The notes under the pieces are model-generated. The model had not been told where the DNA came from. It did no database searches and saw only the letters and a program-made list of their open reading frames with translations. Positions 3,813-63,339 of a stretch of 64,000 bases of DNA are shown one piece after another. Location: contig CP086683.1 of NCBI GenBank assembly GCA_030544685.1, positions 4,030,001-4,094,000 on the forward strand, read 5' to 3'. Source of the stretch: Pseudomonas sp. B21_DOA (GTDB taxonomy: Bacteria > Pseudomonadota > Gammaproteobacteria > Pseudomonadales > Pseudomonadaceae). Within the stretch, counting starts at the first letter, position 1. Each line of letters begins with the position of its first letter. The translations under genes and the position numbers were made by a program.

Positions 3813-5092
3813 CTACTTGGCTCTCACCGTCCACAGCTGATCTAACTTCGTCGTGTAACTCTGACTCATCAGTTCGCGACGCATCGTCCAACCAGGCGCT
3901 GCAGGCACGCTGGCTAAACGCAGCACTCCCTTTCCCCAGCGGCCATTTATCTCATCCAGAACGCTCATCACCTTGTCCGCTATCACGGGTTGCGAATGGG
4001 CGAACAGGTCATCAGTGAATTCGCCGGGTTGTCGCAAATCCATCAGCAGCACTTCCGCCTTGCTGTATTTGTAGCCGGGACGGAAGAGACGATTGACCGC
4101 TTCGGTCGCAGCCTTCGTCATCAGCCGCACGTCGTTGGTCGGGTACGGCAACTCCACCAAGGCGCCATTCGCATATTTCGCTTCTTCGGGATTGAACATG
4201 CCGGTGCGTATGCTCACGCGGATCTTCTTGCACAGCGAGTTTTGCACTCGGAGTTTTTCCGCCGCACGCTGGGTATAGGTGGCGACGGCCTCCTTGATTG
4301 GCTCGATTTGTGTCAGCCGCATACCGAACATTCTGCTGCAGCAAATCTCCTGCTTCGGTGGGTCAGCTTCCCTAGTTCTAGACATGGTGTACCGGCCAGC
4401 TCGCGAGCAGTCTTCTCGATCACCACGCTGAATTTCTGGCGAAGCATCCACGGATCGGCTTTTGCCAAGTCCATCGCGGTCTTAATGCCCATCGTTTCCA
4501 GGTGAGCCTTCATCCGCTTGCCAATGCCCCAGACTTCGCCGACATCGGTGTTGCGCAGCGTCCAGTCCCGTTTGAACGGATCGCAGAGATCGACCACACC
4601 GCCGGTGATATCCAGCAGCCTTTTGGCGGTATGGTTTGCGAGCTTCGCCAGCGTCTTGGTGCCGGCAATACCCACCCCGACTGGAATGCCTGTGCGCTTG
4701 AGAAGGGTGGAGCGCATGTGCCTGCCGAACGCGGACAGATCTCCAGGCATGCCAGTCAAATCAGCAAATGCTTCATCAATGCTGTAGACCTCAAGTGCCG
4801 GCACCATCGATTCGATGATCGTCATGACGCGCTCGCTCATGTCACCGTACAGAGCGTAATTGCTGCTGAATGCCACCACTCCATGCCGGCGTAGATGGTC
4901 TTTGATCTGGAAGTACGGCTGGCCCATCTTCACGAAAGGCTTGGCGTCGTAGCTACGCGCGATCACACAGCCGTCGTTGTTGGACAGCACCACAATAGGT
5001 GTCTTGGCGAGGTCCGGTCTAAAGACTCGCTCGCAGCTCGCGTAAAACGAGTTGCAGTCGATCAGGGCGAAGACAGGCTCACGTGTTGTCAT
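3813..5092 (-). CDS. umuC: DNA polymerase V subunit UmuC (RulB type), frame broken by a 1-base deletion
   Basis: Y-family error-prone polymerase catalytic subunit. The first 259-codon frame carries FALIDCNSFYASCERVF (catalytic Asp), VLSNNDGCVIARS and YSIDEAFADLTG (catalytic Asp-Glu). The second frame carries the little-finger region and C-terminus, from ADPPKQEICCSR to the end. The frames join at a C run at 4370-4372 (G run on the coding strand), where one missing base explains the break. The restored length is 426 residues, normal for the family. The start overlaps the umuD end by 14 bp, as usual in umuDC. Whether the break is biological or a sequencing error cannot be told from here. Confidence 0.85.
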
Positions 5093-5509
5093 GATCGCGC
5101 ACGCTGTATTTCACAACGCCCCAGATCACAAGCTCATCGCCTTCCATGACATGTCTCGCCGGATATCTTGGGTTCTCTGACACAAGCATCACGGCGTTCT
5201 CGCGCAGAAGCAGGCGCTTGCAGAACGGTTCCGAATTCAACGCGGCGATAACGATATCGCCACTGACCGCTTCGATGCTTCGATCGACGATCACCATATC
5301 CCCGGAATAGATACCCGCGCCTTGCATACTGTCTCCATCTATCTTTACCAGGTACACGTGCGGCGCCCGGATATCGAACAGCTCATCCAGGGAAATGTGC
5401 TTTTCGATATGATCAGCCGCAGGAGAGGGAAGCCCGCTGGTACCTTGGATGAATAAAGTGGCAGCTTCTTACCGCCAGTAGCGAGTGGGCCGAGGAGGGT
5501 GATGCTCAT
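5079..5509 (-). CDS. umuD: UmuD (RulA type) S24 self-cleaving subunit, frame broken by a 1-base deletion
   Basis: SOS-regulated UmuD homologue. The C-terminal part has the catalytic Ser in KIDGDSMQGAG and the catalytic Lys in EPFCKRLLL. The N-terminal part starts at ATG 5509 (MSITLLGPLATG) and runs to KVPAGFP, where one base is missing from a run at 5427-5429. Restoring it gives SPAADHIEKHISLDEL and a 143-residue protein. The probable self-cleavage site is the Ala-Gly of VPAGF, directly before the break. If the break is real, only a piece of about 92 residues from GTG 5357 could be made. A LexA box lies 20 bp upstream. Confidence 0.85.
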
Positions 5510-5529
5510 GATGCAAGCCTTAGGAGGTT

Positions 5530-5549
5530 AACTGTACATGCATACAGTT
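5530..5549. promoter_or_regulatory. LexA-binding SOS box
   Basis: AACTGTACATGCATACAGTT is a near-perfect palindrome with the CTG-N10-CAG core at 5532-5547, matching the gammaproteobacterial LexA consensus. It sits between the divergent umuD and truncated SRAP genes and could control both. Confidence 0.9.
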
Positions 5550-5607
5550 AACGATTTGGTTCGCTTGCGGTCAATCTCATAGGTACGACAATTCGACGGG
5601 TGACAGC

Positions 5608-5727
5608 ATGTGCGGACGCTACTCGATCTACGAATCGATGGATCACTATCTTAAGGAGCTTGCGCCAAAGCAGTTGGTGATCAATGGCTATGACCTATGG
5701 CCAAAAGCACGGCGCTTTGACAGTTGA
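5608..5727 (+). pseudogene. SRAP (YedK/HMCES) N-terminal stub
   Basis: A 39-residue frame starting MCGRYSIYESMDHYL, the invariant N-terminus of SOS-response-associated peptidases. Cys2 is the residue that forms the thiazolidine crosslink to abasic sites in single-stranded DNA. Homology ends after about VINGYD. The remaining eight or so residues are unrelated, and a TGA closes the frame. The rest of the roughly 220-residue family domain, including the other active-site residues, is absent, so this is a deletion remnant. It shares the LexA box with umuDC, the usual Pseudomonas arrangement. Confidence 0.85.
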
Positions 5728-5768
5728 ATCTTGGCTGAGCAAGTGATTTGGTGATTGAGTGAAAAAGA

Positions 5769-5789
5769 GCCCTATTAGGGCCTTTTTTT
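5769..5789 (+). terminator. Rho-independent terminator after the SRAP stub
   Basis: Stem GCCCT/AGGGC with an ATT loop, followed by CC and seven T. It ends transcription from the SOS-box side before the convergent LysR gene, whose stop codon is 8 bp further on. Confidence 0.75.
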
Positions 5790-5796
5790 GAGGCTC

Positions 5797-8750: not shown

Positions 8751-9855
8751 ATGATTGATATTGCCGCAGACACCGACCTGTTTTCCCCATGACGATGGGG
8801 GCGATGCAACTGGCTAACCGAATTGTCATGGCGCCAGTGACTCGCAGTCGAATGGCTGACGACGGCGTGCCGAACGAAATGCATGCCACTTATTACGCCC
8901 AGCGGGCCAGCGCGGGCCTGATCATCGCCGAGGCCACGAACATTTCTGCTCAGGGGCGTGGCTATGCCATGACGCCCGGTATCTGGTCCGAGGAGCAGGT
9001 GGCAGGCTGGAAAAAGTCACTGACGCAGTGCATGCGGCCGGCGGGAAAATCGTCAGCCAGTTATGGCACGTAGGTCGCTTCTCCAGCGTTGAGTTGCAGC
9101 CAAACGGCGAAGCGCCGGTCGCGCCCTCAGCAATCAAGGCCGAAGGTACGACCTATACCAACAATGGCATGATCGAAGTGTCCATGCCTCGGGCGCTTGA
9201 GACTTCAGAGATCCCGGGGATCATCGAGCAGTACAGGCATGCGGCAGAAAATGCCAAGCGAGCCGGTTTCGACGGTGTGGAAGTCCATTCTGCCAACAGC
9301 TATCTGCTCGACCAGTTCCTGCGTGATTCCACCAACCAACGGACTGACCAGTACGGCGGCTCTATCGAAAATCGGACACGACTGACACTCGAAGTCACCG
9401 AAGCCGTGGTCGCAATTTGGGGCAGTGACCGGGTCGGCATCCGCCTTTCACCAGTAACTCCTGATGCAGGTAACACGCCTCCAGACAGCAACGTCATGGC
9501 GACCTACGGTCACCTCATTCAGCAGTTGAACAGATTCAACTTGGCCTATCTGCATTTCGTCGAAGGCGCGACAGCCACCTCTCGTACCGTTCCTGAAGGG
9601 GTGGATCTGGACGCGCTGAGTGCGCAGTTCGAAGGGCCGTACATTGGCAACAACAACTATGACCTGGAAATGGCGCGGGAGCGCAGGGCGCAAGGGCGGA
9701 TTGATGCCGTGGCGTTTGGTCGATTGTTCATTGCCAACCCCGATTTGGTAGAGCGCCTGCGTCGGGGTCTCGAGCTGAGCATAGCGCCGCGCGAGAGTTA
9801 TTACGGCGGAGGCGCCAAGGGCTACATCGATTGGCCAACGGCCAACTCCAATTAA
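8751..9855 (+). CDS. Old Yellow Enzyme / NemA-type ene-reductase, two 1-base deletions
   Basis: FMN-dependent NAD(P)H ene-reductase. The start is ATG 8751 after GGAG. Three frames join at 8785-8788 (C run; DLFSP then [16 protein letters not shown]) and at 9016 (GWKK then [21 protein letters not shown]). Adding one base at each gives 368 residues, the normal size. The substrate-binding His/Asn pair is in [12 protein letters not shown], and the FMN phosphate region is in [16 protein letters not shown] TetR-type operator lies just upstream. The gene heads a plus-strand run with an SDR and NTF2-like genes. Two breaks in one gene could mean decay, but both are single-base losses like the others in this window. 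Confidence 0.85.
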
Positions 9856-12110: not shown

Positions 12111-14512
12111 CTAAAAATCCACCGTTGCCGACATCAGATACGTTCGCGGCGTCGAAAGCGTCAACCCCGGCTCACTGTCATCCGATGCACCCGCCGAACT
12201 CCAATAGCGTTTATCCAGCACGTTTTCGACGTTGGCGCGCAAGGTAATGGTCTTCTCATCCAGTTTGAAAGCATAGCGTGTGCCTACGTCGAACCGTTCC
12301 CAGGAGTCGATGTCTTTATCATTCGACTGATCCAGATACTGCGAACTCGAGTAAATCCCGCGACTGGTCAGGGTCAGCCCCTGCACGTTTGGCACATCCC
12401 ACTCCGCGCCAAGGTTGACGTTGTATTTGGGTGTCGCCGGTGCGCGATTGCCGTCGAACGTACCGTTGGTGGTCTGGCTCAGTTCGCTATCGATGTACAT
12501 CACACCGCCGAGCAACCTGAAGCCTTTGAGCGGTTCGCCGAACACGCTCAGTTCCACGCCGTTGTTCTCGCGCTTGCCGTTCGGGCCGAAGACTCGCGTG
12601 GTGGCGTTGGTTTCGTACGCCGGTTGTTTAATGCGGAACACCGCTGCTGTCAGCGCGTATGCGCCCGCGTCGTACTTGGCCCCGACTTCGACCTGGCGGC
12701 TGATGAATGGCGGGAAGATTTCGTCTTCGTTGATTGACGTTGATGGCGCGATCTTGCCTTGGCTCAGACCTTCCATGTAGTTGGCGTACAGCGAAAGTTT
12801 GTCGGTTGCCTTGAACAGAATTCCGCCCGACGGCGAGACTTTTTCCTCATCGTAAGCCGTGTCGCCCTTGATGCCGTCGCTCCAGTCGTCGACTTTGACC
12901 CGCTGCCAGCGCGCCCCCAGAGTCAGCAACAGACGATCGTCGAAGAAACCGAGCGTGTCGGACAAGGCCACGCCGCTGAAGCGGTTCTCTGTGTAGACCT
13001 TGGCGTCATTGCGGGTCGGTGTGCCGGGTCTGGCGATTTCCACTGGATCGTAGAGATTGCTGCGTCCCGCTGCATAACGCGCGCCGCCGTTTTCGAAGTC
13101 CATATAAAAGTAGTTGGCCGCCAGGTTCACCTCATGGCTGACCGGCCCGGTCTGGAACCAGTTACGCACCCCAGCGGTAGCCGTACGAACGTTTTCGTCG
13201 CGGGTGAAATCTCGCGGCTGGACGCTAAAGTCACCGGCATCGTTAGTCACCGAAACCGCATGGCGCAAGAAGTCGTGATTGCTTTTGCGTGCGCCGACGC
13301 CGCCATACAGCATGACCGAATCGCTGACATCGAACTCGCCGTTGACCGTCCCGAACGTGTCTTTGGTGCGCGCCTGGCTCCAGGGTTGCGCATAGTTGTC
13401 GCGCACATCGTTGGCGTTCGGCACCTTGGCATTGGCGGCGACTTGCACGCGTTCCTGCGGTGCGTCGGTGTCGCGCTCGGTGTGGCCGATATCGGTGGAA
13501 AGTCGCAAGCGTTCACCACGGAAATCCAGACCGACTACTGCCATGTCGCGATCGACACTCTGATGATCCCATTCGGTATCCCCGGACTGTTTAACCCCGT
13601 TGAAGCGCACCCCGAACTGATTGTCTTCGCCAAAGCGCCGACCGACATCCACCGCGCCGCCGACCTGGTTGTTCGAGGCGTAATTGGCCGTCAGCGAGGT
13701 AATCGGCTTGTCGGTCGCGCGTTTCGGCACGACGTTGATCCCCCTCCTACACTGCCCCGTGGCGAAATCCCGTTGATCAATTGGCTTGGGCCCTTGAGGA
13801 TGTCGACGCGATCAGCCATCTCCATGTCGATGGTGTACGTCGGCAAGACACCGTAAAGGCCGTTGTAGGAAACGTCGCTGTTGAACAGGCTGAAACCACG
13901 GATGGTGAATTGCTCGTAGCGGCCACCGGCCGGGTTGGTTGCGCGCACCGAAGGGTCGCTGCCGATCAGGTCGCCCAGCGTGCGCGCCTGTTGGTTTTTC
14001 ACCGTTTCGCTGGTGTAAGTGGTCATGCTGAACGGGGTTTCCATAAAATCCCTGGAGCCCAGCAGCCCTTGCGAGCCACGCCGTGCGACCTGACCGCCGG
14101 CAAACACGTCGGCATCCGCCGAGTCGCTCGCGCCAAGAATCGAGGTAGGCGCAAGCTGCAAGGTGCTGCCTTCTGCCGCAGGCACCAGCGTATAAGCCTG
14201 ATCGCCGACCGGCTGCAGCTGCAAACCAGAGCCCAGCAACAACCGGCTGAACCCCTCCTCCACGCCATATTCACCGGACAAACCATTGCTGTTGCGGCCG
14301 CTGACCAGTGCCGGATCCACCGACAGATTGACCCCGGCGAGACCGGCGAAACGCGTCAGCGCCGCACTCAGGCTACCGGCCGGCACCTGATAACTGCGGC
14401 GGCTGCCGTCGTCGGCCCAGCTCGATTGGATCAACACGGGGCTGGCACTCAGGCTCAGCAAAAGGCTCAACTGCAACAACGGACGCAAACGACCTGGAAA
14501 TACTGCGGGCAT
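12111..14512 (-). CDS. TonB-dependent siderophore receptor with STN domain, frame broken by a 1-base deletion
   Basis: Outer-membrane ferric-siderophore transducer. It has a signal peptide at about 1-33, an STN signalling domain (SYQVPAGSLSAALTRFAGL onward, about 40-95), a plug domain (RTLGDLIGSDPSVR, TIRGFSLF, ILKGPSQLINGISPRGSVGGG) and a beta barrel ending in VDF with the usual terminal Phe. The coding strand is short of one G in the run at 13740-13744 right after SVGGG. Adding it joins INVVPKRATDKP and gives 800 residues. It lies after fecI and fecR on the same strand, so it should signal through FecR to the ECF factor on binding its siderophore, which is not identifiable. Confidence 0.9.
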
Positions 14513-18536: not shown

Positions 18537-21108
<2,572 letters not shown>

Positions 21109-24498: not shown

Positions 24499-24741
24499 AC
24501 GAAACGGCCTTGAAATAAAAAACGATTCAACAAAAACAATAAATGCATGAAATGAAACGCAAAAAAACGGCGTAGCTCAATGACAGGGGTTGCCGCGAAA
24601 GGCCGACAACCTGCCGTTCGAGGCCATAAAAGTCAATCGGGCATTCCCCGAACGGTCTGTTTGCTGCTTTATCAGCACGGTAGGCGAACTGAAACATCGC
24701 GCTCTTATGTTCAATGCAGGGACTGCGAACAGGAGTGCGGC

Positions 24742-29709: not shown

Positions 29710-30861
29710 ATGCACGATCTCGAACTGACTGAAGAACAAGTGATGATCCGCGACATGGCCCGGGATTTTGCCCGTGGTGAAATCGCCCCGCACGCGCAAG
29801 CCTGGGAAAAGGCCGGCTGGATCGACGATGCCCTGGTGGCGAAGATGGGTGAGCTGGGCCTGCTCGGCATGGTCGTGCCCGAGGAATGGGGCGGCACTTA
29901 CGTCGATTACGTCGCCTATGCGCTGGCCGTTGAGGAAATCTCCGCTGGCGACGGCGCCACTGGTGCGTTCATGAGTATCCACAACTCGGTCGGCTGTGGC
30001 CCGGTGCTCAACTACGGCAGCGATGAGCAGAAACAAACCTGGCTGGCCGATCTGGCCAGCGGGCAAACCATCGGTTGCTTCTGCCTGACCGAACCCCAGG
30101 CCGGCTCCGAAGCACACAACCTGCGCACCCGTGCCGAACTGCGCGACGGCCAATGGGTGATCAACGGCGCCAAGCAATTTGTCAGCAATGGCAAGCGGGC
30201 GAAACTGGCGATCGTCTTCGCCGTGACCGATCCGGATCTGGGCAAGAAAGGTCTTTCGGCGTTTCTGGTACCGACCGATACACCGGGTTTCATCGTCGAT
30301 CGCACCGAACACAAAATGGGCATCCGCGCTTCCGACACCTGCGCGGTAACGCTGAACAACTGCAGCATTCCCGAAGCCAACCTGCTCGGCGAGCGTGGCA
30401 AAGGCCTGGCGATTGCCCTGTCCAACCTTGAAGGCGGACGCATCGGCATCGCCGCGCAGGCATTGGGTATCGCCCGGGCAGCGTTTGAAGCGGCGCTGGC
30501 CTACTCGAAAGACCGGGTGCAATTCGACAAGCCGATCATCGAGCACCAGAGCATCGCCAATCTGCTGGCTGACATGCACATGCAGATCAACGCCGCGCGG
30601 TTACTGATCCTGCATGCGGCGCGACTGCGCACGGCGGGTAAGCCGTGTTTGTCCGAGGCATCACAGGCCAAGCTGTTCGCATCGGAAATGGCCGAGAAGG
30701 TGTGTTCGTCGGCGATCCAGATTCATGGCGGCTACGGCTATCTTGAGGATTACCCGGTCGAGAAGTACTACCGCGATGCGCGGATTACTCAGATCTATGA
30801 AGGGTCGAGCGAGATACAGCGGATGGTGATTGCGCGGGATTTGAAGAACTATCAGTTGTAA
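29710..30861 (+). CDS. acyl-CoA dehydrogenase (isobutyryl-/short branched-chain type)
   Basis: A 383-residue flavoenzyme. It has signature [20 protein letters not shown] at about residues 120-139, and the second ACAD signature [23 protein letters not shown] near 340-362, with catalytic Glu expected in [10 protein letters not shown]. The order with the hydrolase gene upstream supports isobutyryl-CoA as substrate. It converges with the enoyl-CoA hydratase on the other strand, with a REP doublet in the gap. Confidence 0.92.
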
Positions 30862-30951: not shown

Positions 30952-31724
30952 CTATTTGCCTTGGAATGCAGCCTCACGCTTGGCAATAAACGCCGCCATC
31001 CCTTCCTTCTGATCCTGCGTCGCAAACGCGGCATGGAACACCCGGCGCTCAAAGCGCACGCCCTCGGTCAGGTTGACCTCGAACGCGCGGTTGACGCTCT
31101 CCTTGATCATCATCGCAATCGGCAGTGACTTGCCGGCGATCACCGCTGCAACTTTCAGCGCCTCATCAAGCAGCTCATCGCTCGGCACGATCCGCGCGAC
31201 GATGCCGCAACGCTCGGCTTCCACCGCGTCGATCATGCGCCCGCTCAGGCACATTTCCATGGCTTTGGCTTTGCCCACGGCGCGGGTCAGGCGTTGGGTG
31301 CCGCCCATGCCCGGCAGCACGCCGAGGTTGATTTCCGGCTGGCCGAATTTGGCGTTGTCGCCAGCCAGGATGAAGTCGCACATCAGCGCCAGTTCACAAC
31401 CGCCGCCAAGGGCAAAACCATTGACCGCCGCAATGATCGGCTTGCGCCGGTTCGCGACACGATCGCTGTCGCTGAACAGATCGTCCATGTAGATCTGCGG
31501 ATAGGTCAGCTCGGCCATTTCCTTGATGTCCGCGCCGGCGGCGAAGGCTTTTTCGAACCGGTGAGGACGATGCAGCCAATGTGCGCATCGGCTTCCAGCG
31601 TATCGAGGGCGTGGTTCACTTCGCTGACCAGTTGCGCGTTCAGCGCGTTCAGCGCCTGTGGCCGGTTGAGGGTGATCAGGCCGACGCGGTCGCGGGTTTC
31701 CAGCAGAATCGTTTCGTAAGTCAT
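30952..31724 (-). CDS. enoyl-CoA hydratase, frame broken by a 1-base deletion
   Basis: Crotonase-fold hydratase of the short (257-residue) type. The first frame begins [22 protein letters not shown] and reaches IVLTGS. Adding one base at 31554 continues [19 protein letters not shown], the first oxyanion segment, and the second frame has [18 protein letters not shown] with catalytic Glu residues beyond. The gene follows the acyl-CoA dehydrogenase at 31740 by 15 bp on the same strand, an ordinary beta-oxidation type pair for 2-methylbutyryl-CoA or isobutyryl-CoA breakdown. Confidence 0.88.
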
Positions 31725-31739: not shown

Positions 31740-32867
31740 TCAGAGATTGCGCGAAATGACCATGCGCTGAATGTCGCTGGTGCCTTCGTAGATCTGGCAG
31801 ACGCGCACGTCGCGGTAGATGCGTTCCAGCGGGAAGTCGTTGAGGTAACCGTAACCGCCGAGGGTTTGCAAGGCCATGGAACAGACCTTCTCGGCCATTT
31901 CCGAGGCGAACAGCTTGGCCATCGATGCCTCGACCAGCGCCGGTTGGCCGCTGTCACGCAAGGCTGCGGCGTAATGCACCATCTGCCGGGCGACGGCAAT
32001 TTGCGTGGCCATGTCCGCCAGGCGGAACGCCACGGCCTGATGCTCGATGATCGGCTTGCCGAAGGTGTCACGCTCGCGGGCGTAATCGCGAGCGGCTTCG
32101 AACGCGGCGCGGGCCATGCCGACAGCTTGCGAGGCGATTCCTACGCGGCCGCCTTCGAGGTTGGCCAAGGCGATCTTGTAGCCCTCGCCCTCTTCGCCAA
32201 GGCGGTTGGCGACCGGCACTTTCACCTCTTCGAAGAGGATCTGACAGGTGTCGGAGGCGTGCTGGCCAAGTTTGTCTTCGACCCGCGCAACCTTGTAGCC
32301 CGGCGAGTCGGTCGGCACGATAAACGCGCTGATCCCGCGCTTGCCGGCGCTCGGGTCGGTCACGGCAAACACGATCACGATGCCGGCGTTCTGCCCTGAG
32401 GTGATGAACTGTTTGCAGCCGTTGAGCACGTAGTGATCGCCTTCCAGCCGCGCACGGGTTTTCAGGCTGCTGGCATCGGAACCGGCCTGCGGTTCGGTCA
32501 GCGCGAAGGCGCCGAGCATGGCGCCGCTGGCCAGCGGTTTGAGGAAGCGTTCGCGCTGGTCGTCATTGCCGAACTTGAGAATCGGCACGCAGCCGACCGA
32601 GTTGTGCACGCTCATGATCGTCGAGCACGCACCGTCGCCGGCGGCGATTTCTTCCAGGGCCATGGCGTACGCCAGGTAGCCGGTGTCACAGCCGCCCCAC
32701 TGTTCTGGCACGAGCATGCCGAAAAAGCCCAGCTCGGCCATCTCGGCGATGGCTTCCCTGGGGAAACGGTGCTCGCGATCCCACTCGGCGGCGAACGGCT
32801 TGAGCCGCTCCTCGGCAAACTGCCGGGCCATGTCGCGGATCTGGGTTTGATCTTCGTTGGGGATCAT
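31740..32867 (-). CDS. acyl-CoA dehydrogenase (2-methylbutyryl-/short-chain type)
   Basis: A 375-residue acyl-CoA dehydrogenase with [18 protein letters not shown] near residue 123 and [21 protein letters not shown] near 338, and catalytic Glu expected in [10 protein letters not shown]. It is about 50 percent alike by eye to the dehydrogenase at 29710. By its place with a thiolase, an SDR and an acyl-CoA synthetase on the same strand it fits isoleucine-type degradation. A REP doublet separates it from the thiolase gene. Confidence 0.9.
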
Positions 32868-37861: not shown

Positions 37862-37934
37862 GGAGCGAGATGAGCCTTGTTATTTTCGGGTGGTGGGCAT
37901 CTTAACCCAGCTCCTGATTTCACCGCAGGACCAA

Positions 37935-38024
37935 TGTGGGAGCGAGCCTGCTCGCGAAAGCGGTGTGTCAGATAAAGACATGTCACAGGCATACCGCATT
38001 CGCGAGCAGGCTCGCTCCCACAGG
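37935..38024. repeat. REP inverted doublet (REPIN)
   Basis: TGTGGGAGCGAGCCTGCTCGCGAA and its inverse ending at 38024, in the divergent gap between the AraC and efeU genes. Confidence 0.88.
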
Positions 38025-38133: not shown

Positions 38134-38973
38134 ATGCTCGTTCCCTTTTTGATCATGTTGCGCGAAGGCATCGAGGCCGCGCTCATCGTTGGCATCATCG
38201 CCAGTTACCTGCAGCAGACCGGCCGCGGCCAGTGGATGCCGGCCGTATGGATCGGTGTCTTCCTCGCCGCTGCCCTCGCCTTGCTGGTCGGTGGTGGCCT
38301 GGAACTGGTCAGTGCTGAATTTCCGCAAAAGCAGCAGGAGCTGTTCGAAGGTGTAGTCGGCCTGGTCGCGGTGGGCATCCTCAGTTCCATGGTGTTCTGG
38401 ATGCGCAAGGTCGCGCGGTCGATCAAGCACTCGCTGCAAGCCTCGCTGGATCAGGCGCTGACGCAATCCAGGCATCAGGTGATTGCATTGATCGCCATGG
38501 TTTTCTTCGCCGTCGCTCGCGAAGGCCTGGAGACGGTGTTCTTCCTGCTCGCCGTGTTCCAGCAAAGCGAAGGCCCGGGCGCGCCGATTGGCGCCCTGCT
38601 CGGCCTGGTCCTGGCGGTGATCGTCGGTTTCCTGATCTACAGCGGCAGCATGCGCCTCAACCTCTCGGCGTTCTTCAAGTGGACCGGGTTGTTCATCCTG
38701 GTAGTCGCCGCCGGCATCCTCGCCAACTCGGTGCAGGCGCTGCATGAAGCCGGTCTGTGGAATCACCTGCAAACCGTGCTGTTCGACTTCAGCGCGACGC
38801 TGCCGATGGACGGCCCGCTCGGCTCGGTGCTGGCCGGCATGTTCGGTTATCAGGATGCGCCGACCGTCAGCACCCTCGGTGCGTACCTGATTTATCTGCT
38901 GCTGGCGCTGGTGATGTTCTTCATGCCCGCGCCTCGCCAGGCAACGCCAACGACTTCCGTTTCCAACCAATAA
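38134..38973 (+). CDS. efeU: ferrous iron permease EfeU (FTR1 family)
   Basis: A 279-residue inner-membrane permease with seven hydrophobic segments. Both iron-binding R-E-x-x-E motifs are present: REGIE at residues 9-13 and REGLE at about 129-133. It imports iron in the EfeUOB system. The efeO start follows 8 bp after its stop codon. The frame from ATG 38134 lacks a clear ribosome binding site. Confidence 0.93.
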   Translation: MLVPFLIMLREGIEAALIVGIIASYLQQTGRGQWMPAVWIGVFLAAALALLVGGGLELVSAEFPQKQQELFEGVVGLVAVGILSSMVFWMRKVARSIKHSLQASLDQALTQSRHQVIALIAMVFFAVAREGLETVFFLLAVFQQSEGPGAPIGALLGLVLAVIVGFLIYSGSMRLNLSAFFKWTGLFILVVAAGILANSVQALHEAGLWNHLQTVLFDFSATLPMDGPLGSVLAGMFGYQDAPTVSTLGAYLIYLLLALVMFFMPAPRQATPTTSVSNQ

Positions 38974-38981
38974 GGGCACCC

Positions 38982-40165
38982 ATGTCTGACATTCAAACCC
39001 CTCGGCCCTGCGTTGGGCGCTGGCCGGCTCGGTAGTGCTGATGATCGCCGCCGGTGGATTGTTCTGGTACGCCTCGAACATGGCCGCCGCCAAGCGTCAG
39101 CACAACCACGACGAAATCATCGTCAATATCCATCCGCACAGTTGTGAGCCGAATGCGCTGACGGTGCCGGCCGGCCGCGCCAGCTTCCGCATCGTCAACC
39201 GCTCCGAGCGTGCGGTCGAGTGGGAAATTCTCGACGGCGTGCTGGTGGTCGAAGAGCGGGAAAACATCGCCCCGGGCCTGAGCCAGGTGATCAACGCCAA
39301 CCTGCAACCGGGCGACTACGCGATCACCTGCGGCTTGCTCAGCAACCCGCGCGGCACCTTGCACGTCACACCGACGGCAGCGTCGGATGCCGCCGCCAAG
39401 GCCAAGCCGTCAATGGTGGCGTTCGTTGGACCATTGTCGGAATTTCGCGTGTATCTGGCCGTTCAGGGCAGCGCGTTGATCAAAGCGGCGACGGCGCTGA
39501 ATCAGGCGGTCGCCAGTGGCGATCTTGCGCAGGCGCAAGCGTTGTACCTGCCGGCGCGTGCCGCGTATCAGCGTCTGGCGCCGGCGGCGCAGCGTCTGGC
39601 CGAGCTGGACAATCACATCAATGCCCGCGCCGATTATTTCGAGAAGCGCGAGCAGGATCCGGCTTTTGTCGGTTTCCATCGCCTCGAATACGCGCTGTTT
39701 CAGCAGCGCAAACTCGACGATGTCGCGCCGATTGCCCCGCGCCTGCTCGCTGACGTCACCGAGCTCAAACAGCAATTGCTCGCCCAGTCACTGCCACCGG
39801 AGCAACTGGTGAGCATCGTCGTGCGCAACCTCAACAGCCTCGCCGAGGTGCGCGCTGCCAGCGGAGAAGAAGAGCGCTACAGCCACAGCGATCTCAACGG
39901 TTTCGCCGCCAACGCGCAAACCGCGCGCAAGGTCGTCGACCTGTTGCGCCCAATGCTGAGCAAATCCTCCGCTGACGTGTTGGCGAACGTCGATCAGGCG
40001 CTGAGTGATTTCGACAGCCAGCTCAACGCGTTCAAATCCGCCGATGGCTACGTCAGTTACGACGCCGTGACCGCCGCGCAACGCCAGCAGATCGCCGCCA
40101 AAGCCAAGACTCTGGCCACGGCGCTGGATGGCATCGACCCCGCCCTCGGCCTTTCCGGCCTGTAA
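38982..40165 (+). CDS. efeO: iron uptake protein EfeO (cupredoxin plus M75), frame broken by a 1-base deletion
   Basis: Periplasmic iron-binding component. From ATG 38982 (MSDIQT) one missing C in the run at 38998-39001 breaks the frame. Restored, PSALRWALAGSVVLMIAAGGLFW gives the membrane signal segment and the total is 394 residues. The cupredoxin-like domain (about 45-145) has NIHPHSCEPNAL and YAITCGLLSNP with metal-type His and Cys residues. The M75/imelysin domain follows, with its His-x-x-Glu in GFHRLEY. It passes iron to EfeU; efeB follows after 15 bp. Confidence 0.9.
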
Positions 40166-45424: not shown

Positions 45425-46204
45425 ATGCCTTTCGAACTCAGCGTTGACCTCACCACCCTGGCCATTCTGGCTGCCGTTGCCTTCCTTGCCGGTTTCATCG
45501 ATGCCATTGCTGGCGGTGGCGGTCTGTTGACCACACCGGCGCTGCTGACGGCGGGCCTGCCGCCGCATCTGGTGCTGGGCACCAACAAATTGAGCTCGAC
45601 CTTCGGTTCGGCGACTGCCAGCTTCACCTTCTACAAGCGCAAACTGTTTCATCCACGCCAGTGGACCCACGCGATTGTCGGTACCCTGGTCGGTGCGCTC
45701 ACGGGTGCGGTGGTTGCGCATTACCTGCCGGCCGAATGGCTGAACAAGATGCTGCCGGTGATCGTCTTCGCCTGCGGCCTGTACTTGCTGTTTGGCGGCA
45801 CGCCGAAAGCGCCGCTGGACAGCGATGCTCCGATCAAAAAGAAATGGCAATCGACCCAAGGCTTCAGCCTCGGTTTCTACGATGGCGTGGCTGGCCCCGG
45901 CACGGGAGCGTTCTGGACGGTGAGCAGTCTGCTGCTGTACCCGATCGATCTGGTCAAGGCCAGCGGCGTGGCGCGCAGCATGAACTTCGTCAGCAACATC
46001 GCGGCGTTGTCGGTGTTCATCTTCTCGGGTCAAGTCGACTGGATCATTGGCCTGTGCATGGGCCTGTCGGTGATGGTCGGGGCCTTCTTTGGCGCACGCA
46101 CGGCCATTAGCGGCGGCGCCAAATTCATTCGTCCAGTGTTCATCACCGTGGTGCTTGGCTTGACTGTGCGCCTAGCCTGGCAGCACTGGTTCAGCGTGGC
46201 CTAA
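45425..46204 (+). CDS. TSUP (TauE/SafE) family membrane transporter
   Basis: A 259-residue membrane protein with about eight hydrophobic segments and the paired family motifs [19 protein letters not shown] (about 22-40) and [15 protein letters not shown] (about 155-169). Members export sulfite, sulfoacetate or related anions; the substrate is open. The 3' end overlaps the convergent nudC by 33 bp. Confidence 0.9.
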
Positions 46205-47000
46205 GCGCCGCGCCACGTAGACATCGATCAGGTATCGAGCAATCGAGCGCGACGCCGGCAACGGCGGCAGCTCATGCACGTTGAACCACTGGGCGTCCTC
46301 GATCTCGTCTTCCTGACAGACAATCTCGCCACCGGCGTATTCGGCATGGAAGCCGAGCATCATCGAATGCGGGAACGGCCAGCACTGGCTACCGATGTAC
46401 TGGATGTTCTTCACCTCGATCTGCACTTCTTCGCGCACTTCGCGAATCAGGCAATCCTCAGCCGACTCCCCGGCTCGGCGAAACCGGCCAGCGTGCTGTA
46501 AACCCCAGTGACGAAACGCGGTGAGCGCGCCAGAAGGATCTCGTCGCCACGGGTGATCAGCACGATCATGCTCGGTGAGATGCGCGGATAGCTGCGCAGA
46601 TCGCACGGCTGGCAATACATCGCCCGCTCGCGCGGCACTTGTGTCATCGGCTGTCCACAATTGCCGCAGAAGCGATGCTCGCGCGCCCAAGTGCCGATCT
46701 GTGCGGCATAACCGAGCACTTTGTACAGGGTGTGATCCCCTCGAGCATGAACGCCCGCAGGCCTTTCCAACCGCAACCGGGCACTTCGCTGGCACTGCGC
46801 AACTCGAGCAGATACACCGGTTCGCCATCGAGATGACCAATGCCATGCTCGGCGAGGACCGAAAGGTCCTGGCGCTTGAGCCATTCACGCGGGAACAGCG
46901 CGCCGTTGTCATCGAACAGAAAGCCTTCCGGGCTGCGCGCTACGGCCCAGCCGCCGGGTTGATCGGTGTCGAGTACTGCAGTGGTCCAGCGAGAGGTCAT
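46172..47000 (-). CDS. nudC: NAD+ diphosphatase / RNA deNADding enzyme NudC, two 1-base deletions
   Basis: Nudix hydrolase removing NAD caps and cleaving NADH. Three frames join at G5-to-G4 sites at 46737-46740 (FMLEG then [15 protein letters not shown]) and 46468-46471 (FAEPG then [15 protein letters not shown]). Both corrections give 276 residues, the family norm. The zinc ribbon is FCGNCG and YCQPC, the Nudix box spans [13 protein letters not shown] to REVREEV, and the NudC-specific [14 protein letters not shown] follows. The start is ATG 47000, 7 bp downstream of the crotonase stop. Confidence 0.9.
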
Positions 47001-50582: not shown

Positions 50583-51413
50583 TTCGCGAGCAAGCCCGCT
50601 CCCACAGGGTTCGGAGTCGAATGCAATATTGCATTTACCCCACTCGAATGTGGGAGCGGGCTTGCTCGCGAAGAGGCCAGCGATAGCACCTTAAATCTAG
50701 ATCAGAATAAAGATTGCCAGGTGCAGTCAGGACCAAACGTGTTGAATGTGAACCAGCATTCGCGAGCAAGCCCGCTCCCAAAGGGTTCGGAGTCGAATGC
50801 ATATCTGCATCCACCCCAATCAAATGTGGGAGCGGGCTTGCTCGCGAAGAGGCCAGCGATGACACCGCAAATCTTCAGATCAGAATGAAGATCGCCAGGT
50901 GGAGTCAGGACCAAACGTGTCGAATGTGAGCCCGCTCCCACAGGGTTCGAAGTCGGAATGCATATCTGCATCCACCCCAATCAAATGTGGGAGCGGGCTT
51001 GCTCGCGAAGAGGCCAGCAATGGCACCGCAAATCTTCAGATCAGAATGTATATTGCCAGGTGGAGTCAGGTCGAGACGTGTTGAATGTGAGCCGGCATTC
51101 GCGAGCAAGCCCGCTCCCACAGGGTTCGGAGTCGAATGCAATATTTGCATCCCCCCAATCAAATGTGGGAGCGGGCTTGCTCGCGAAGAGGCCAGCGATA
51201 GCACCTTAAATCTAGATCAGAATAAAGATTGCCAGGTGCAGTCAGGACCAAACGTGTTGAATGTGAGCCCGCATTCGCGAGCAAGCCCGCTCCCACTGGG
51301 TTCGGAGTCGGATGCAATATTTGCATCCACCCCAATCAAATGTGGGAGCGGGCTTGGTCGCGAAGAGGCCAGCGATGGCACCGCAAATCTTCAGATCAGA
51401 ATGAAGATCGCCA
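50583..51413. repeat. tandem array of about 4.8 REPIN-containing units (period 161-179 bp)
   Basis: Each unit has an inverse REP (GCGAGCAAGCCCGCTCCCA), a short spacer, a direct REP (GTGGGAGCGGGCTTGCTCGCGAAGAGG), then a stretch with GATCAG (starts 50700, 50878, 51039, 51215, 51394) and a tail CCAAACGTGTTGAATGTG. Units 1 and 4 share one variant; units 2, 3 and 5 share another. Unit 3 lost part of its first REP. The last unit runs into the 3' end of lpxO. Frames read through here are artefacts. Confidence 0.93.
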
Positions 51414-52289
51414 ACAACGCGGCAAAAATCGCCCATTTTTCCAGGTAATACCGCGTGCGGTTGCGCTTCTTCAGCTCTTTACCGCGCAAACGGATCTTGT
51501 AGATTTTGGTAAACAAGCGGTTGATGCCACCGGTCTTGTCCCCGGCATCATTCGGCGCGCCCGCCGCGGACATCACCGTGCGGCTGAACCAGCGGTTGAA
51601 GGCGGCGGCCCAGCGGTATTTCAGCGGTCGCTCGATGTCGCAGAACAGAATGATACGGTTCTGATCCGTGGTGTTTTCTGCGTAATGGATAAACGTCTCA
51701 TCGAACATCACCGCTTCGCCATCGCGCCAGTGATAGTTCTCACCGTCGACGTTGATGTAGCAGCCAGGATCATTCGGCGTGTCCAGACCCAAGTGATAAC
51801 GATATGAGCCGGCGTAAGGATCGCGATGGCGCACCAGTTTCGAGCCCGGTGGCAGCTCGGCAAACATCGCCGCTTTGATCGAGCCGATGCTCTGCACCAG
51901 TTCGGTGGTGCGTGGGCACAGCTTCATTGCCGACGGGTGACTGTCGCCGTACCACTTCAGATAAAAGCGCTTCCAGCCAGTCTTGAAGAAGGAGTTGAAG
52001 CCGACATCGTCATACTGATTCGAACGCTTGATCTCGCCGGCACGCAGCAGATTCTGGCCTTCCTCGCGAATCTCTTCCCAATGGGCCTGCAACGGGCTCA
52101 GATCAGGAAATCCGCCGGGTTCAGATACGGCTTGTTCGGCATCCTGGAAAACAGATAGAGGAAGCAGTTGATCGGCGCGAGGAACGTCGAATGGTCACTC
52201 AATTGCCGCCCCAGCTTGTGGCGTACGCGTCCACGCAGGTGAACGTAAGCAATGGAGATGACATAAACAGCGGCAATGATGAGTTTCAC
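51391..52289 (-). CDS. lpxO: lipid A 2-hydroxylase LpxO-like dioxygenase, frame broken by a 1-base deletion
   Basis: Aspartyl/asparaginyl beta-hydroxylase-family Fe(II)/2-oxoglutarate enzyme that hydroxylates the 2-position of a lipid A acyl chain. It starts at GTG 52289 (KLIIAAVYVISIAYVHLRGR, a membrane segment). The break at 52106-52107 (one C missing on the coding strand) joins NPADFP to DLSPLQAHWEEI. Restored length 299. The metal His and Asp lie in VRHRDPYAG, the second His in DETFIHYAEN, the 2-oxoglutarate Arg in QNRIILFCDIERP; a C-terminal membrane helix ends IFILI. Its last codons are part of the tandem array unit. Confidence 0.88.
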
Positions 52290-52599
52290 GGAAAAGGGTC
52301 ACACGTCAAAAGTGAACAAACTGCGCGCGTGGCGGCCTGGGGCCCAGCGTCTTATGCAGCGGTCTTGATGCACAGGGCGCGTCCTTGGCCCGCGCCGTTT
52401 CCGGGCGCTCGGTGAACGGCTGGCATTTTAGCCACACTTTGTAACCGATAGTGAATCCTCAACTGTGAAAAACTGTCTTGCAGCTCTCTCAGGTAATGCC
52501 CGCGCCGCTCCGCAAGCAGGCGAAACGCCCGTTGCTCATTTCGATGGAACCACGCTTGGCACGCGCTCCTCTATCGCTTACCAATAACGGAGGACCCCC
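52290..52599. other. gap without a supported gene
   Basis: 310 bp between the lpxO start and the next gene. No conserved frame, REP or hairpin stands out. It should contain the divergent promoters. Only GGAGG at 52589-52593, the ribosome binding site of the next gene, is clear. Confidence 0.5.
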
Positions 52600-53033
52600 A
52601 TGATCGCCCCAGAAACCGGTATGAAACCAGGTCAGCGCTATCGAATTGAAAGCGTCGAGCGCGCGCCGCAATTCTCTGGCTTTTTTCTCGATGGAAAGTA
52701 TTACCTGGGACCTGAATTGCAGACCGCTGTCGGCTGGCTTGAAGGGCAGACTTTCTTTACGACCAGCTCGACCCGACCGGTGAGCCGGTTTATCCGGACA
52801 GGATTGCCGGCACTATCGAGGGGCTGACGCTGGTGATGGCGGATGGCTTGCGCCTGGAGATCGAAGAAGCGCCCTATCAGGCGGAACCTGCGGCGCCGGT
52901 ACGCGCTTCGATCGCAGGGCGCATCGAGCGCATCTCGCGCCAGCCGATACGCCCTTCTCCACTGCTGGTAGCCGGGGCAGCGATGTTGGTGGGGGTTTGC
53001 CTGCTGACGATCTCGCGCATCAGAAATCGTTAA
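52600..53033 (+). CDS. small membrane-anchored protein of unknown function, frame broken by a 1-base deletion
   Basis: From ATG 52600 the first frame gives MKPGQRYRIESVERAPQFSG and LDGKYYLGPELQTAVGWLEG, breaking at a T run, 52756-52758. One added T gives YDQLDPTGEPVYPDRIAG and leads into the second frame, which ends with a membrane segment (LLVAGAAMLVGVCLLTI) and a basic tail. Restored length 144 residues. No family is recognised with certainty. It is monocistronic, convergent with the methyltransferase gene. Confidence 0.7.
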
Positions 53034-54025: not shown

Positions 54026-55392
54026 TCAACGCAAGCGGGCGCGCAGTTGGATGAAGCGACGCGTCGCGAAAAGTCCGGCCGGGCGCCAGTGCCGCTGCGG
54101 TTGCAGCCAAGGCATCAACAATGCCATTTGCTCGGTGGCAGGCTTGTCAGCCAGTGCCGCTTCCAGATTGAGCAGATCGGCATCATCGTCAAGGTTTCCT
54201 CGACAGCGGCTTCACGGCGCACGTAAGGCCGAGGCCGGGATGCCGGGCAATCCTGAGTGATCCAGTCGCGCAACAGCTGTTTTTCATAGCCGTTGAACAC
54301 ACCAAACATCGCCGCATCGCTGCCGTCGATCAAACGCCAGAAACGGCTTTCTTCCACCGCCTCACCGCGCTTGATCCAGCTCTTGCGTTCCAGCGCCGAG
54401 AGGAATTCGCCCATTTGCCCCGGCGTGGCCAGCCATTGGTTGATGGTGCGGTTTTCGATGCGGCAGTAATCGGAATGCATGTGCCGACCGAACACCGCTT
54501 TGCGCTCAAGCATGGCGATCACTTCGCGGTCCAGATCGAACTCTTTGATCACTGCGGTGGTGCCCTTGCCGACATCATTCAGGCGATAACCGATCGACAT
54601 GCGCCGATAGAACTCGTCGCGCTCTTCACCCAGCGGCATCAGCTCGAGCATCGATTGCACGGCTTTGCGTGCATGACCCGTGCTGGCGTTGTCGATGGTC
54701 ACATGTAAGCGGAAATAATGCGGATCGATGCCCAGCTCTGCCAGCTCATACGCAGTGATCAACAAGTGCAGCGGCAGTTGTTCGTAGCCCAGATTGAAGC
54801 CGATGACTTCCGGCAGAAACTGCCCGCCGAAACGTCCCAGTGCCAACTGCACCGCGCCTTGCAGAAAATACTCGTCAGCAAGACCGCTCAGATCGGAGCA
54901 ATCGTGCTCGGCGAGCAGTTTGCGATAGATCACCACATGGTTCTGCCGAGGCACGCCCTCGCCCAACTCTTCAAGGTAGGTGTCGAGCAAGTCATCGAAA
55001 CGAGGATCCTGCCACTGCGGCAACAGCCCGGCCAGCCAAGCGCCATCGACCTCTTTGGTCGGTGCCACATGCAGAATGAAGTACAACGCGTGGGATTTGT
55101 TGCGGAAATAGCGGCGTGGCCCGCCCTGCTGGCGTTGTTCAAGGTATTCAGCGTATTCGGCAGCCACGCTGGCGCAACGGCTTTCGGACCATTGCAGCAA
55201 CTCTTCGGCGGTAGCCGGCAAATCGTCAGGCAGCGCAGCCGCCTTGCTCAATTGCCGGCGCAAAAAGTCCAGTGCCGCGCGATCAACCGTGGAGTCTTCC
55301 GCCAGCAATCGGTCATAGAGCCGGCGCTCGGTATCCGCCGGCATGGATGTTTTACCCGAAGACTTCCTGGTCGGGATTTCGATCAGCGACAT
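54026..55392 (-). CDS. iron-containing redox enzyme (heme-oxygenase-like fold, Haem_oxygenas_2 family), frame broken by a 1-base deletion
   Basis: An all-helical diiron-type oxidase/oxygenase-family protein. YFRNKSHALYFILHVAPTKEVDGAWL (about 95-120) and the helices with DLLDTYLEELGEG and Glu/His-rich segments are typical. The C-terminal region breaks at 54193-54194. One added base (AAVEET then LDDDADLLNLEAALADKPA) carries the frame to a TGA at 54026 and gives 455 residues. The reaction is unknown; relatives modify small molecules or amino acids. An NPPY methyltransferase is encoded 14 bp downstream. Confidence 0.82.
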
Positions 55393-55497: not shown

Positions 55498-56426
55498 TTA
55501 GCCCAAAGCGGTATCGAGAAACATCATCACGCCGAAGCCGAGCATCAGCCCGAGCGTGGCCGGGGTTTCGTGACCGTTGCGGTGAGTTTCCGGAATCACT
55601 TCATGGGAAACCACGAAAATCATCGCGCCCGCAGCCAGCCCCATCGCCACCGGAAAGCCCAACGCGAAGCTGTTGGTGATGCCCAAACCGATAATCGCGC
55701 CCAACGGTTCCATCAATCCAGAAGCGGCGGCAATCAACGCTGCACGTCCAGCGGAAATGCCGGTGACCCGCAGCGCCAACGCCACGGCCAGACCTTCGGG
55801 GATGTCCTGAATGGCAATGGCAGTGGTCAGCGGCAGGCCGATTTTCATGTCGCCGGTGGCGAAGCTGACGCCGATCGCCATGCCTTCCGGGAGGTTGTGC
55901 AGCGTGATCGCCAGGACAAACAGCCAGACCCGATTGAAGCGCTTCGCCTCAGGCCCGCGCCGCCCGCTTTTTCATGTTCATGCGGGACGAAGCGGTCGAG
56001 GCCGACCATCAACGCCACGCCCAGAGCCATGCCGGCCACGACGACGGCCGCGGCGAGCATGGGACTGCTCACCGCCTCCTTCGCCGCCGCGATGCCCGGC
56101 AGGATCAATGAAAAGGAACTGGCCGCCAGCATCATCCCCGCCGCAAACCCGAGCATGGTGTCCTGGGTTCGCGAAGTAATCGCCCGCAACGCCAAGGCCA
56201 ATAACGCACCGACTGCCGTAGCGGCAAAACCCGACAGCCCGCCAAGGCTGGCGAGGCGCAAGGTGTCGCGGCCCGTACTGACCAAACCAGTGTAGCCACT
56301 GATCAGCAGCAACACGGTCACACCGACCAGGGTCAGCCAGAAAATGCGACCTCCCCAGCCAGTACGCGCCAGGCTGACAAACCATGCGCGCACGGGGGCT
56401 GCGAACGAAGATGACGGTAGCGCCAT
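55498..56426 (-). CDS. ZIP family metal transporter (ZupT/GufA-like), frame broken by a 1-base deletion
   Basis: Inner-membrane divalent-metal importer (zinc and possibly iron or manganese). The first frame reaches HEHEKAGGAG, a cytosolic His loop. A base is missing at 55954-55956. Restoring it gives PEAKRFNRVWLFVLAITLHNLPEGMAIG and then AIQDIPEGLAVAL: the two metal motifs HNLPEG and QDIPEG of the family. The total is 309 residues with eight or more hydrophobic segments. It starts at ATG 56426, next to the zinc alcohol dehydrogenase on the same strand. Confidence 0.9.
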
Positions 56427-61143: not shown

Positions 61144-61236
61144 CTCTGGCCAGCGCCAACTGAGCACATCGACCCAATCCTTTTGGCTCGGCACAGTCGA
61201 TCATCAGCGCCATCCCAATTGCCGCCGGCCCTGACC

Positions 61237-62532
61237 ATGATCAACTGCGCCCCCTCGCGCTTCACCCTGCTTGCACTGTTCTGCAGCCTCAGCGCTAGCG
61301 CCTGCGCCGATGGTTTTTTCGCCGATGCGAAAAGCGATGTACTGCTGCGCAACTTTTACCTGAGCAACGATTACCGATCGCCAACACCCTCCGGTAAAAA
61401 CTACAAACAGGAGTGGGCTCAAGGAGTTATAGGTAACTTCTCATCAGGTTTCACCGATGGAGCCGTCGGTTTCGGCATCGACGCCCACGCCTTCGCCGGC
61501 CTGAAACTCGACGGCGGCAAGGGTCACTCCGGCACCGGTCTGCTGCCGGTCGACAGCGATGGTCGCAGCGAACATGACTACTCCAGCGCGGGCGGTGCAT
61601 TCAAGCTGAAAGTTTCGCGTACTACGCTGGCGTTCGGCGAAATGACCGTGGAAACCCCGGTCTTCGACACGTCCGACAAACGCCTGCAACCGGAATACGC
61701 CACAGGCTTTCTGCTCAACAGCGCCGAGTTCAATAACGTCAATCTGGTCGCCGGGCATTTCACCGCGTTCAAGAATCAGGACAGCTCTTCCGGCCAAGGC
61801 GACTTCTACGGTTACGGCGCCAACACCGAAGCGGGCGGCATCAGCTTCGTCGGCGCCGACCTGTTCAGCAGCAGCCCGGTCGGCGGCGCGTTGTATGCCT
61901 CGAAACTGAGCGACACCTGGCATCAGTACTACGGCAACCTGCATTTCAAACAATCAGGTGTGTTGCTCGACGCCAACCTCTACCACACCCGCGACACCGG
62001 TCGCGCATTGGCCGGCGAAATCGACAACACCGCCTTCAGCCTCTCCGGCAAGTACAGCTTCGGCCCCCACGCGGTGATGCTCGGCTGGCAACGGATCAAT
62101 GGCGACACGCCGTTCGATTTCGTTGGTGGCGACTCGATCTACCTGGCCAACTCGATCAAATACGCCGACTTCAACGGCGCCAACGAACGCTCCTGGCAAG
62201 CCCGCTACGATTTCGACTTCGCCGCTCTCGGCGTCCCCGGCCTGAACTTCATGACCCGCTACGTCAGCGGCAGCCACATCGACGGCAGCCACGCACCCCG
62301 AGGCGGCGCCTACAACCCGTTCGACGCCGACAGTGGCGACTATCAGCCGCAACAGGGTGATGGCGGCAAACACTGGGAACGCGACATCGACCTGAAATAC
62401 ATCGTCCAGTCCGGCGCCGCGAAGGACCTGTCGGTACAGCTGTCGCACGTCACCCACCGCGCCAACGAAGCGCAGGCTGGCGATGATATTGACCGGATTT
62501 ACGTGGTCATCCAGTACCCGTTGGGTTTCTGA
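61237..62532 (+). CDS. OprD-family outer membrane porin
   Basis: A 431-residue 18-strand porin of the Pseudomonas-specific OprD/Occ family. Signal peptide residues 1-24 (cut after ACA), mature start DGFFADAKSDVLLRNFYLSNDYRS with the family N-terminal strand, the conserved EWAQGVIGNFSSGFTDGAVGFGIDAHA and terminal F. It takes up amino acids, small acids or aromatics; the substrate cannot be named. ATG 61237 fits the signal peptide; 18 further codons upstream are unsupported. Confidence 0.9.
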   Translation: MINCAPSRFTLLALFCSLSASACADGFFADAKSDVLLRNFYLSNDYRSPTPSGKNYKQEWAQGVIGNFSSGFTDGAVGFGIDAHAFAGLKLDGGKGHSGTGLLPVDSDGRSEHDYSSAGGAFKLKVSRTTLAFGEMTVETPVFDTSDKRLQPEYATGFLLNSAEFNNVNLVAGHFTAFKNQDSSSGQGDFYGYGANTEAGGISFVGADLFSSSPVGGALYASKLSDTWHQYYGNLHFKQSGVLLDANLYHTRDTGRALAGEIDNTAFSLSGKYSFGPHAVMLGWQRINGDTPFDFVGGDSIYLANSIKYADFNGANERSWQARYDFDFAALGVPGLNFMTRYVSGSHIDGSHAPRGGAYNPFDADSGDYQPQQGDGGKHWERDIDLKYIVQSGAAKDLSVQLSHVTHRANEAQAGDDIDRIYVVIQYPLGF

Positions 62533-62570
62533 ATAGCCCACTCAGCTCTTGCTGAAAACAGGATTCCAAC

Positions 62571-62597
62571 TGTGGGAGCGAGCTTGCTCGCGTAGGG
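62571..62597. repeat. REP singlet
   Basis: CTGTGGGAGCGAGCTTGCTCGCG palindrome just after the porin gene. Confidence 0.8.
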
Positions 62598-62700
62598 GCC
62601 ATCAGGTTCGGCGCAATTCTTCAATTTAAACGACGCTGTTTAAAAGACACCTGCTGACACGGTCTCAAGGCTACAAATCCTTGCGCCGTTGCCTACAGCT

Positions 62701-62950
62701 ACGCCAGAATCCGCCGGCTTGTGCGCCTTGGGGGCGGGTTCTATTGTGGTGCGGTCGCTGACGAATCAGCGATCGGGTTTAGCGACCCGGATCTTGAATA
62801 GGTGCATCAGCGTTCCATGCTTTGTCGCGGGTTCAATGTCTGCGACTGCGCCATGGTGGCTGTATGTGGGAGACCTTCGGGTCTGCCGGGTGCCTATAAC
62901 CGGTTCGCTAACCTGCGTACAGCCGCCACCTCACTGTTTAGCGACAGTGC
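62701..62950 (+). ncRNA. candidate structured RNA leader upstream of the DUF6124 gene
   Basis: Consecutive hairpins can be drawn: 62706-62715 with 62733-62742; 62755-62761 with 62766-62772 (CGAA loop); 62774-62778 with 62785-62789; a long stem 62855-62864 with 62918-62930 enclosing AGACC-UUCG-GGUCU (62871-62884) and GGUU-CGCU-AACC (62902-62913); and 62932-62936 with 62945-62949. A CCGG/CCGG pairing (62886-62889 with 62900-62903) excludes the GGUU stem. A plus-strand frame through it (62689-62967) is judged spurious. Function unknown; a cis-acting leader of the next gene is the simplest idea. Confidence 0.5.
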
Positions 62951-62980
62951 CTGACGGCTCCACTTAATAGGAGCTTCACC

Positions 62981-63339
62981 ATGATCAAACCAACACCCAA
63001 CCCACCCGAAACCGACCCCACCTCCCCTACGAATCCCTCGACTCCAAAAAACTCCACCAAGCCGCCGACCGCGCCCTCGACCACTATCTCTGCCCACCCG
63101 GCTCCACCCCACCGCCGTACAGCCCCCGCGCCATGTATGCCGTCACCGCCGACACTAAAAACGAAGACCTGCTGGCCAACGCCTGCGAAACCCTCGCCTC
63201 GGCCAAAACCATCGCCCAGGAATTCGCCGGACTGGTCAAGCCATCGCAGCGCCGGACGCTGATGGGGATTGCGCAACTGATCATGCTCGGGGAACTGGCG
63301 GTGAATCGGGTGCTGGATAATCTGGAGCTGCCGGGATAA
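62981..63339 (+). CDS. DUF6124 (formerly DUF3077-like) small Pseudomonas protein, frame broken by a 1-base deletion
   Basis: A 119-residue protein when one C is added to the run at 63024-63027. It starts MIKPTPNPPETDPTSP, continues YESLDSKKLHQAADRALDHYL and ends with TLMGIAQLIMLGELAVNRVLD-NLELPG, a pattern of the DUF6124/DUF3077 group that occurs in many copies in Pseudomonas. It is soluble and mostly helical with no known function. AGGAG lies 8 bp before ATG 62981. A hairpin-rich leader precedes it. Confidence 0.8.

Follow-up and report, generated by a model that had tools for sequence, protein, structure and literature searches.

Single-base deletions that break genes across the sampled regions of the Pseudomonas sp. 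B21_DOA assembly almost certainly reflect homopolymer under-calling

The window analysed here is a stretch of 64,000 nucleotides of the Pseudomonas sp. B21_DOA genome (contig CP086683.1, positions 4,030,001 to 4,094,000 of the forward strand), and between positions 3813 and 63339 it contains thirteen genes whose reading frames are interrupted in the deposited sequence. Near the left end are two genes on the reverse strand, umuC (3813..5092; break near 4370–4373), encoding a subunit of DNA polymerase V, and umuD (5079..5509; break near 5425–5429), encoding the autoproteolytic subunit, followed by a forward-strand gene of the Old yellow enzyme/N-ethylmaleimide reductase type (8751..9846) with two breaks, near 8786 and 9013. 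To the right of these are genes for a TonB-dependent siderophore receptor with an N-terminal STN domain (12112..14512, reverse strand; break near 13739), an FAD-dependent amine/amino acid oxidase of the DAO family (19784..21104, forward strand; break near 20863), an enoyl-CoA hydratase (30952..31724, reverse strand; break near 31548), and the iron uptake protein EfeO (38757..40165, forward strand; break near 39003). The right part of the window has the reverse-strand genes nudC, encoding an NAD(+) diphosphatase (46173..47000; two breaks, near 46467 and 46737), and lpxO, encoding a lipid A hydroxylase (51391..52289; break near 52110), a small protein gene on the forward strand (52523..53029; break near 52758), and, again on the reverse strand, genes for a haem-oxygenase-like iron-containing redox enzyme (54026..55392; break near 54192) and a ZIP metal transporter (55499..56426; break near 55971). 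The rightmost is a forward-strand gene for a DUF6124 protein (62981..63339; break near 63026). Gene names were assessed on the unbroken copies in relatives, and the names proposed in the earlier note mostly stand: the relative's UmuC scores above the cut-off of its model, umuD is placed in its family by a model match, and the others have family matches, with two reservations. The relative's copy of the small protein has no match in NCBIfam or Pfam, making this the weakest gene call among the thirteen, and what had been called an amine oxidase is better described as a DAO-family FAD oxidoreductase.

The genome is a single contig of 5,940,484 bases with an estimated completeness of 95.32, compared to 99–100 in 24 genomes of the same genus, a few drafts in a larger list reaching down to 86. 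A 2.4-kb stretch gave no match in the plasmid collection that was searched. Of 80 named loci, ten were compared and reach no more than about 90% identity over the aligned part, which places the genome in Pseudomonas, probably in the fluorescens lineage. Among 398 genomes of the genus, the closest relatives are two that we refer to as G110 and G046, both 100% complete and 94% identical to the window over a 1,681-base stretch. Their alignment to the window spans about 11.3 to 61.1 kb, and the initial 11.3 kb and final 3 kb are without a counterpart in this block. Two more distant relatives, G019 and G048, were used for additional comparisons.

All fifteen of the breaks listed in the earlier note correspond to one-base gaps in the window relative to intact homologues, and lie within about 7 bases of where they had been placed (within about 17 bases for the ZIP gene). 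Ten of them, those in the genes for the TonB receptor, amine oxidase, enoyl-CoA hydratase, EfeO, NudC (two), LpxO, the small protein, the iron-redox enzyme and ZIP, fall in the aligned block and are deletions relative to G110, and G046 has no gap relative to G110 at any of the ten. Seven of these were recovered at the same place in direct gap lists against both G110 and G046; those in the amine oxidase, small protein and ZIP genes are absent from the shared list, and are based on the gene-wise comparison with G110 together with the gap-free state of G046. At the sites in the enoyl-CoA hydratase, EfeO, NudC, LpxO and amine oxidase genes, G019 and G048 are likewise without a gap.

The other five sites, in umuC, umuD, the Old yellow enzyme gene (two) and the DUF6124 gene, are deletions relative to copies located elsewhere in the genomes of relatives. 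The umuC break is seen against all four relatives' copies, as are both breaks in the Old yellow enzyme gene, and the umuD break is seen against three of four, with the fourth alignment (82% coverage) showing none. In G110 the umuDC copy most similar to that of the window is at another place in the genome (3,053,585), and a 167-base piece of umuC with 93% identity is present at G110 position 3,346,073, directly outside the block in common with the window; there are thus signs that umuDC (window 3813–5509) was gained or lost at the junction near 11.3 kb that forms the edge of the block. The DUF6124 break is seen against all five of the loci examined (six were fetched), and a second one-base gap near 62965, absent from the earlier note, is seen against three of these five, whose frames begin further upstream; in G046 the gene is a 119-codon frame whose start is downstream of the 62965 gap. 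DUF6124 proteins form a multicopy family, and in DNA comparisons with 20 relatives each genome has at least 9 to 28 matches to the stretch from 62640 to 63420. A selenocysteine tRNA gene lies further to the right, at 63696–63791.

Further breaks were screened for in the aligned part of the window, about 11.3–61.1 kb, which covers 41 G110 genes; 12 of these are broken, with 13 isolated one-base deletions, no isolated one-base insertion, and one other break. Ten of the 13 deletions are the ten sites described above, and the three additional ones, near 24723, 37881 and 52595, are not clear gene breaks. At 37881 the state of the window is shared by G046, G019 and G048, making this a peculiarity of G110; the gap near 24723 precedes the part conserved in G019 and G048; and that near 52595 probably lies just before a likely start codon. 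The latter two are thus at or before gene starts that are themselves uncertain. Close to the 37881 gap is an inverted repeat (37935–38022) with 33-base arms, 94% complementary and 22 bases apart, which recurs in many similar copies both in B21_DOA and in other Pseudomonas genomes, and which we take to be a REP-type repeat. In the vicinity of the enoyl-CoA hydratase gene there are two neighbouring frames on opposite strands, 29843–30836 and 31750–32743; in four relatives, the counterpart of each is also matched by the other, at 67–69% DNA identity, and to judge from this cross-matching the pair is an old inverted duplication.

To place the window in its genomic context, gene-wise comparisons with G110 were extended to eight regions, comprising the window, the rpo and mutS regions, and five others; a control comparison of G046 with G110 was available for the window, rpo and mutS regions, and for the other five G110 is the sole reference, so that a few of the differences there will be natural. 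Of nine region pairs, three did not align because the corresponding G110 position had been misjudged (B21_DOA at about 5.30 Mb and the two window flanks), and these were dropped before counting. Genes were kept if they had a match reaching 80% in both coverage and identity, which removed 27 of the 68 G110 genes of the window set, many of which lie beyond the shared block, and 2 of 33, 2 of 27, 3 of 38, 5 of 157 and 2 of 116 in other regions; open reading frames were removed if they had fewer than 5 substitutions or fewer than 55% of these in third codon positions, through which many small ribosomal genes were lost. Gaps in the initial 9 or final 20 bases of a gene were ignored, and groups of gaps that cancel each other within 45 bases were taken out.

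Across the eight regions (431 genes, 456,401 coding bases) there are 112 isolated one-base deletions, 8 insertions and 11 other breaks, and 112 of the 431 genes are broken; a count over 165 genes gave 40 isolated deletions and 3 insertions. The control is very different, with 1 deletion, 2 insertions and 3 other breaks in 99 genes (102,065 bases), 6 of them broken, and the excess of deletions is therefore confined to the B21_DOA assembly and hardly seen in its closest relatives. When all aligned sequence of the window is counted regardless of genes, the excess over G110 is modest (27 one-base deletions and 16 insertions, compared with 23 and 18 for G110 against G046), because natural intergenic gaps add to both sides. 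Raw frame-breaking gaps, with neighbouring gaps left uncancelled, also affect 16 of 46 genes in G019 and 16 of 42 in G048 relative to G110, but with the two directions in balance (13 deletions and 19 insertions in G019, 12 and 13 in G048), whereas the window has 14 and 2. The density in B21_DOA works out at about one deletion of a single base in every 4 kb of coding bases, and extrapolation suggests more than a thousand such deletions in the whole genome.

The likelihood that a run of identical bases is shortened depends strongly on its length and composition. Considering runs with exact flanks in G110, the G/C runs are shortened at 26 of 879 instances of length 4, 38 of 96 of length 5, and 9 of 10 of length 6 (3%, 40% and 90%), and A/T runs at 9 of 938 (length 4), 10 of 292 (length 5), 22 of 84 (length 6), 16 of 24 (length 7) and 5 of 5 (length 8). 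Lengthened runs of at least 4 are rare (2 of 985 for G/C and 5 of 1,343 for A/T), and in the control comparison of G046 with G110 the shortened runs number 4 of 106 at length 5, none of 31 at length 6, and 1 of 7 at length 7. Shortening occurs both in called genes and in the remaining sequence, which includes genes missed by the filters: among runs of 5 it affects 26 of 235 in genes compared with 22 of 153 elsewhere (11% and 14%), and among runs of 6 it affects 11 of 37 compared with 20 of 57 (30% and 35%). Runs of 4 are less often shortened in genes, at 15 of 1268 compared with 20 of 549 elsewhere. G/C runs of 6 occur at 0.5 per 100 kb in the B21_DOA sample and at 5.8 in the G110 sample; the two samples comprise 622,000 and 736,000 bases and are not entirely homologous.

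Not all of the deletions can be assigned to long runs, and the claim of the earlier note that nearly all breaks in the window are in G/C runs is overstated: the longest nearby run is G/C at eight of the fifteen sites and A/T at six, with one tie. A run of at least 3 is present within 5 bases of all fifteen sites (background 44%), and one of at least 4 at ten of the fifteen (background 10%). Measured in G110, run length at the ten sites of the aligned block is 5 or 6 in four cases and 1–3 in six, some of the latter perhaps being gaps misplaced beside a substitution. In the larger set, 42 of the 112 deletions are in runs of 1–3 by the relative's sequence. Enrichment of AAAAA and CCCCC around these short-run deletions suggests gaps misplaced beside runs, so that part of them probably reflects alignment ambiguity next to longer runs, with others remaining. 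A search for methylation-type motifs around the 42 found none, the best words of 4–6 letters being mostly pieces and edges of runs.

The genes affected include several that a cell could not dispense with. The rpoB–secY region (40 kb, 19 genes passing the filters) has five isolated one-base deletions, with rpoB hit twice and rpoC, rplB and secY once each, and G046 has no such deletion in any of the same 19 genes. The open frame of rpoB in B21_DOA (G000) is 1227 codons compared to 1363 in both G110 and G046, and rpoB, the one gene for which copy number was checked, is single-copy. Breaks are also present in rpoS and truD, both in the mutS region. The genes rpoB, rpoC, rplB and secY are essential, and no cell survives without them, and real deletions would not be tolerated there. 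The earlier note had argued that essential-type and conserved genes would not decay together with intact flanks. Within the window this argument is weaker than supposed, as none of the thirteen broken genes is strictly essential and G/C runs account for well short of nearly all sites.

Several biological explanations of the pattern can be weighed against this evidence. The gaps could be natural differences between species, with insertions in the relatives and the ancestral state in the window, and some small gaps are of this kind, as illustrated by the site near 37881 where G110 alone deviates and by the intergenic gaps present in all pairs compared. At the gene sites, however, G110 and G046 are the same, at six of these G019 and G048 agree as well, and the frames of the window are the broken ones, such that we consider this reading highly improbable. 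Real gene decay, following a recent bottleneck or host restriction and leaving many young pseudogenes, is in keeping with a record in which 112 of 431 sampled genes are broken. It would nevertheless be expected to spare essential genes and to mix stop codons, substitutions and larger deletions, whereas one-base deletions dominate here and essential genes are hit; the genome, at 5.94 Mb, is also within the size range of the genus. Moreover, the share of third-position substitutions is 81.4% in 97 genes with deletions and 82.0% in the rest, and although this measure is blind to very recent breaks, it indicates that selection on the broken genes matched that on the others until very recently at least. 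The chance that decay accounts for the pattern is therefore minute.

A mismatch-repair-deficient (hypermutator) strain, in which slippage in runs breaks genes at random, would share the preference for longer runs, this being well established for slippage. But slippage yields insertions too, and 112 deletions were observed against 8 insertions; the MutS and MutL open frames (886 and 653 codons) have the same lengths as in G110, with no frame-breaking gap in mutS; and a living strain could not bear the breaks in rpoB, rpoC, rplB and secY. We attach almost no weight to this explanation. Alternatively, the shortened runs could be real, with the cell compensating through slippage of RNA polymerase or through ribosomal frameshifting. 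Rescue of this type has been proposed for insect endosymbionts, and many of the breaks here are in runs. Such rescue is reported in a review (PMC5009743) and in the Blochmannia genome paper (PMC3017870). In B21_DOA, though, it would be needed at hundreds of genes at once, with about a quarter of the genes, including that for RNA polymerase itself, decoded through genome-wide homopolymer slippage or frameshifting, and it leaves unexplained both the shortened runs outside called genes and the near-absence of shortening in the closest relatives; we find it scarcely credible.

We conclude that the breaks are, with near certainty, systematic consensus errors of sequencing and assembly arising from homopolymer under-calling, rather than a biological feature. 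This agrees with the interpretation offered in the earlier note, and is supported by the bias towards deletions, the steep dependence on run length, the occurrence both inside and outside genes, the presence in all eight regions, the ordinary pattern of selection, and the involvement of essential genes. Runs of a single base would lose one base in the consensus, increasingly often as they get longer, with a steep rise that sets in at shorter lengths for G/C than for A/T; a gene containing a run shortened in this way would have its frame lost in the record but would most likely be whole in the cell. A point against is the set of short-run deletions (42 of 112), which simple miscounting of run length does not predict. 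The source would be an unpolished long-read consensus, most likely of the nanopore R9 type. The artefact is of a known kind, and extends beyond the window to every sampled and aligned region of the assembly. The record should therefore not be taken as gene decay; the assembly is not a safe basis for statements on gene absence, pseudogenes or pan-genome content, and any frame break elsewhere in the genome should be regarded as an error first. The value of these observations is as a warning on data quality, and they carry no biological import.

Similar errors are described in published work. In the Polypolish paper (PMC8812927) and a comparison of R9.4.1 and R10.4 (PMC9262707), the residual errors of long-read-only bacterial assemblies are mostly homopolymer indels, up to hundreds per genome, that cause frameshifts in genes. 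B21_DOA resembles these assemblies in its homopolymer indels and its frameshifted genes, and differs in rate, the extrapolated number of more than a thousand exceeding the published hundreds; the order of failure, G/C before A/T, is a measurement from the present comparison. A closer parallel is from the same genus: in the Kastor paper (PMC12007338), a nanopore-only draft of Pseudomonas syringae 508 has 1101 frameshifted genes, reduced to 190 after correction, with deletions outnumbering insertions by 1708 to 900 with one reference set and by 263 to 36 with a second. That study worked with reads and a correction, and the share of insertions with its first reference set is much larger than the 8 to 112 seen here; in both genomes deletions exceed insertions. 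Together, these published descriptions would fit a long-read consensus without short-read polishing as the origin of the B21_DOA pattern.
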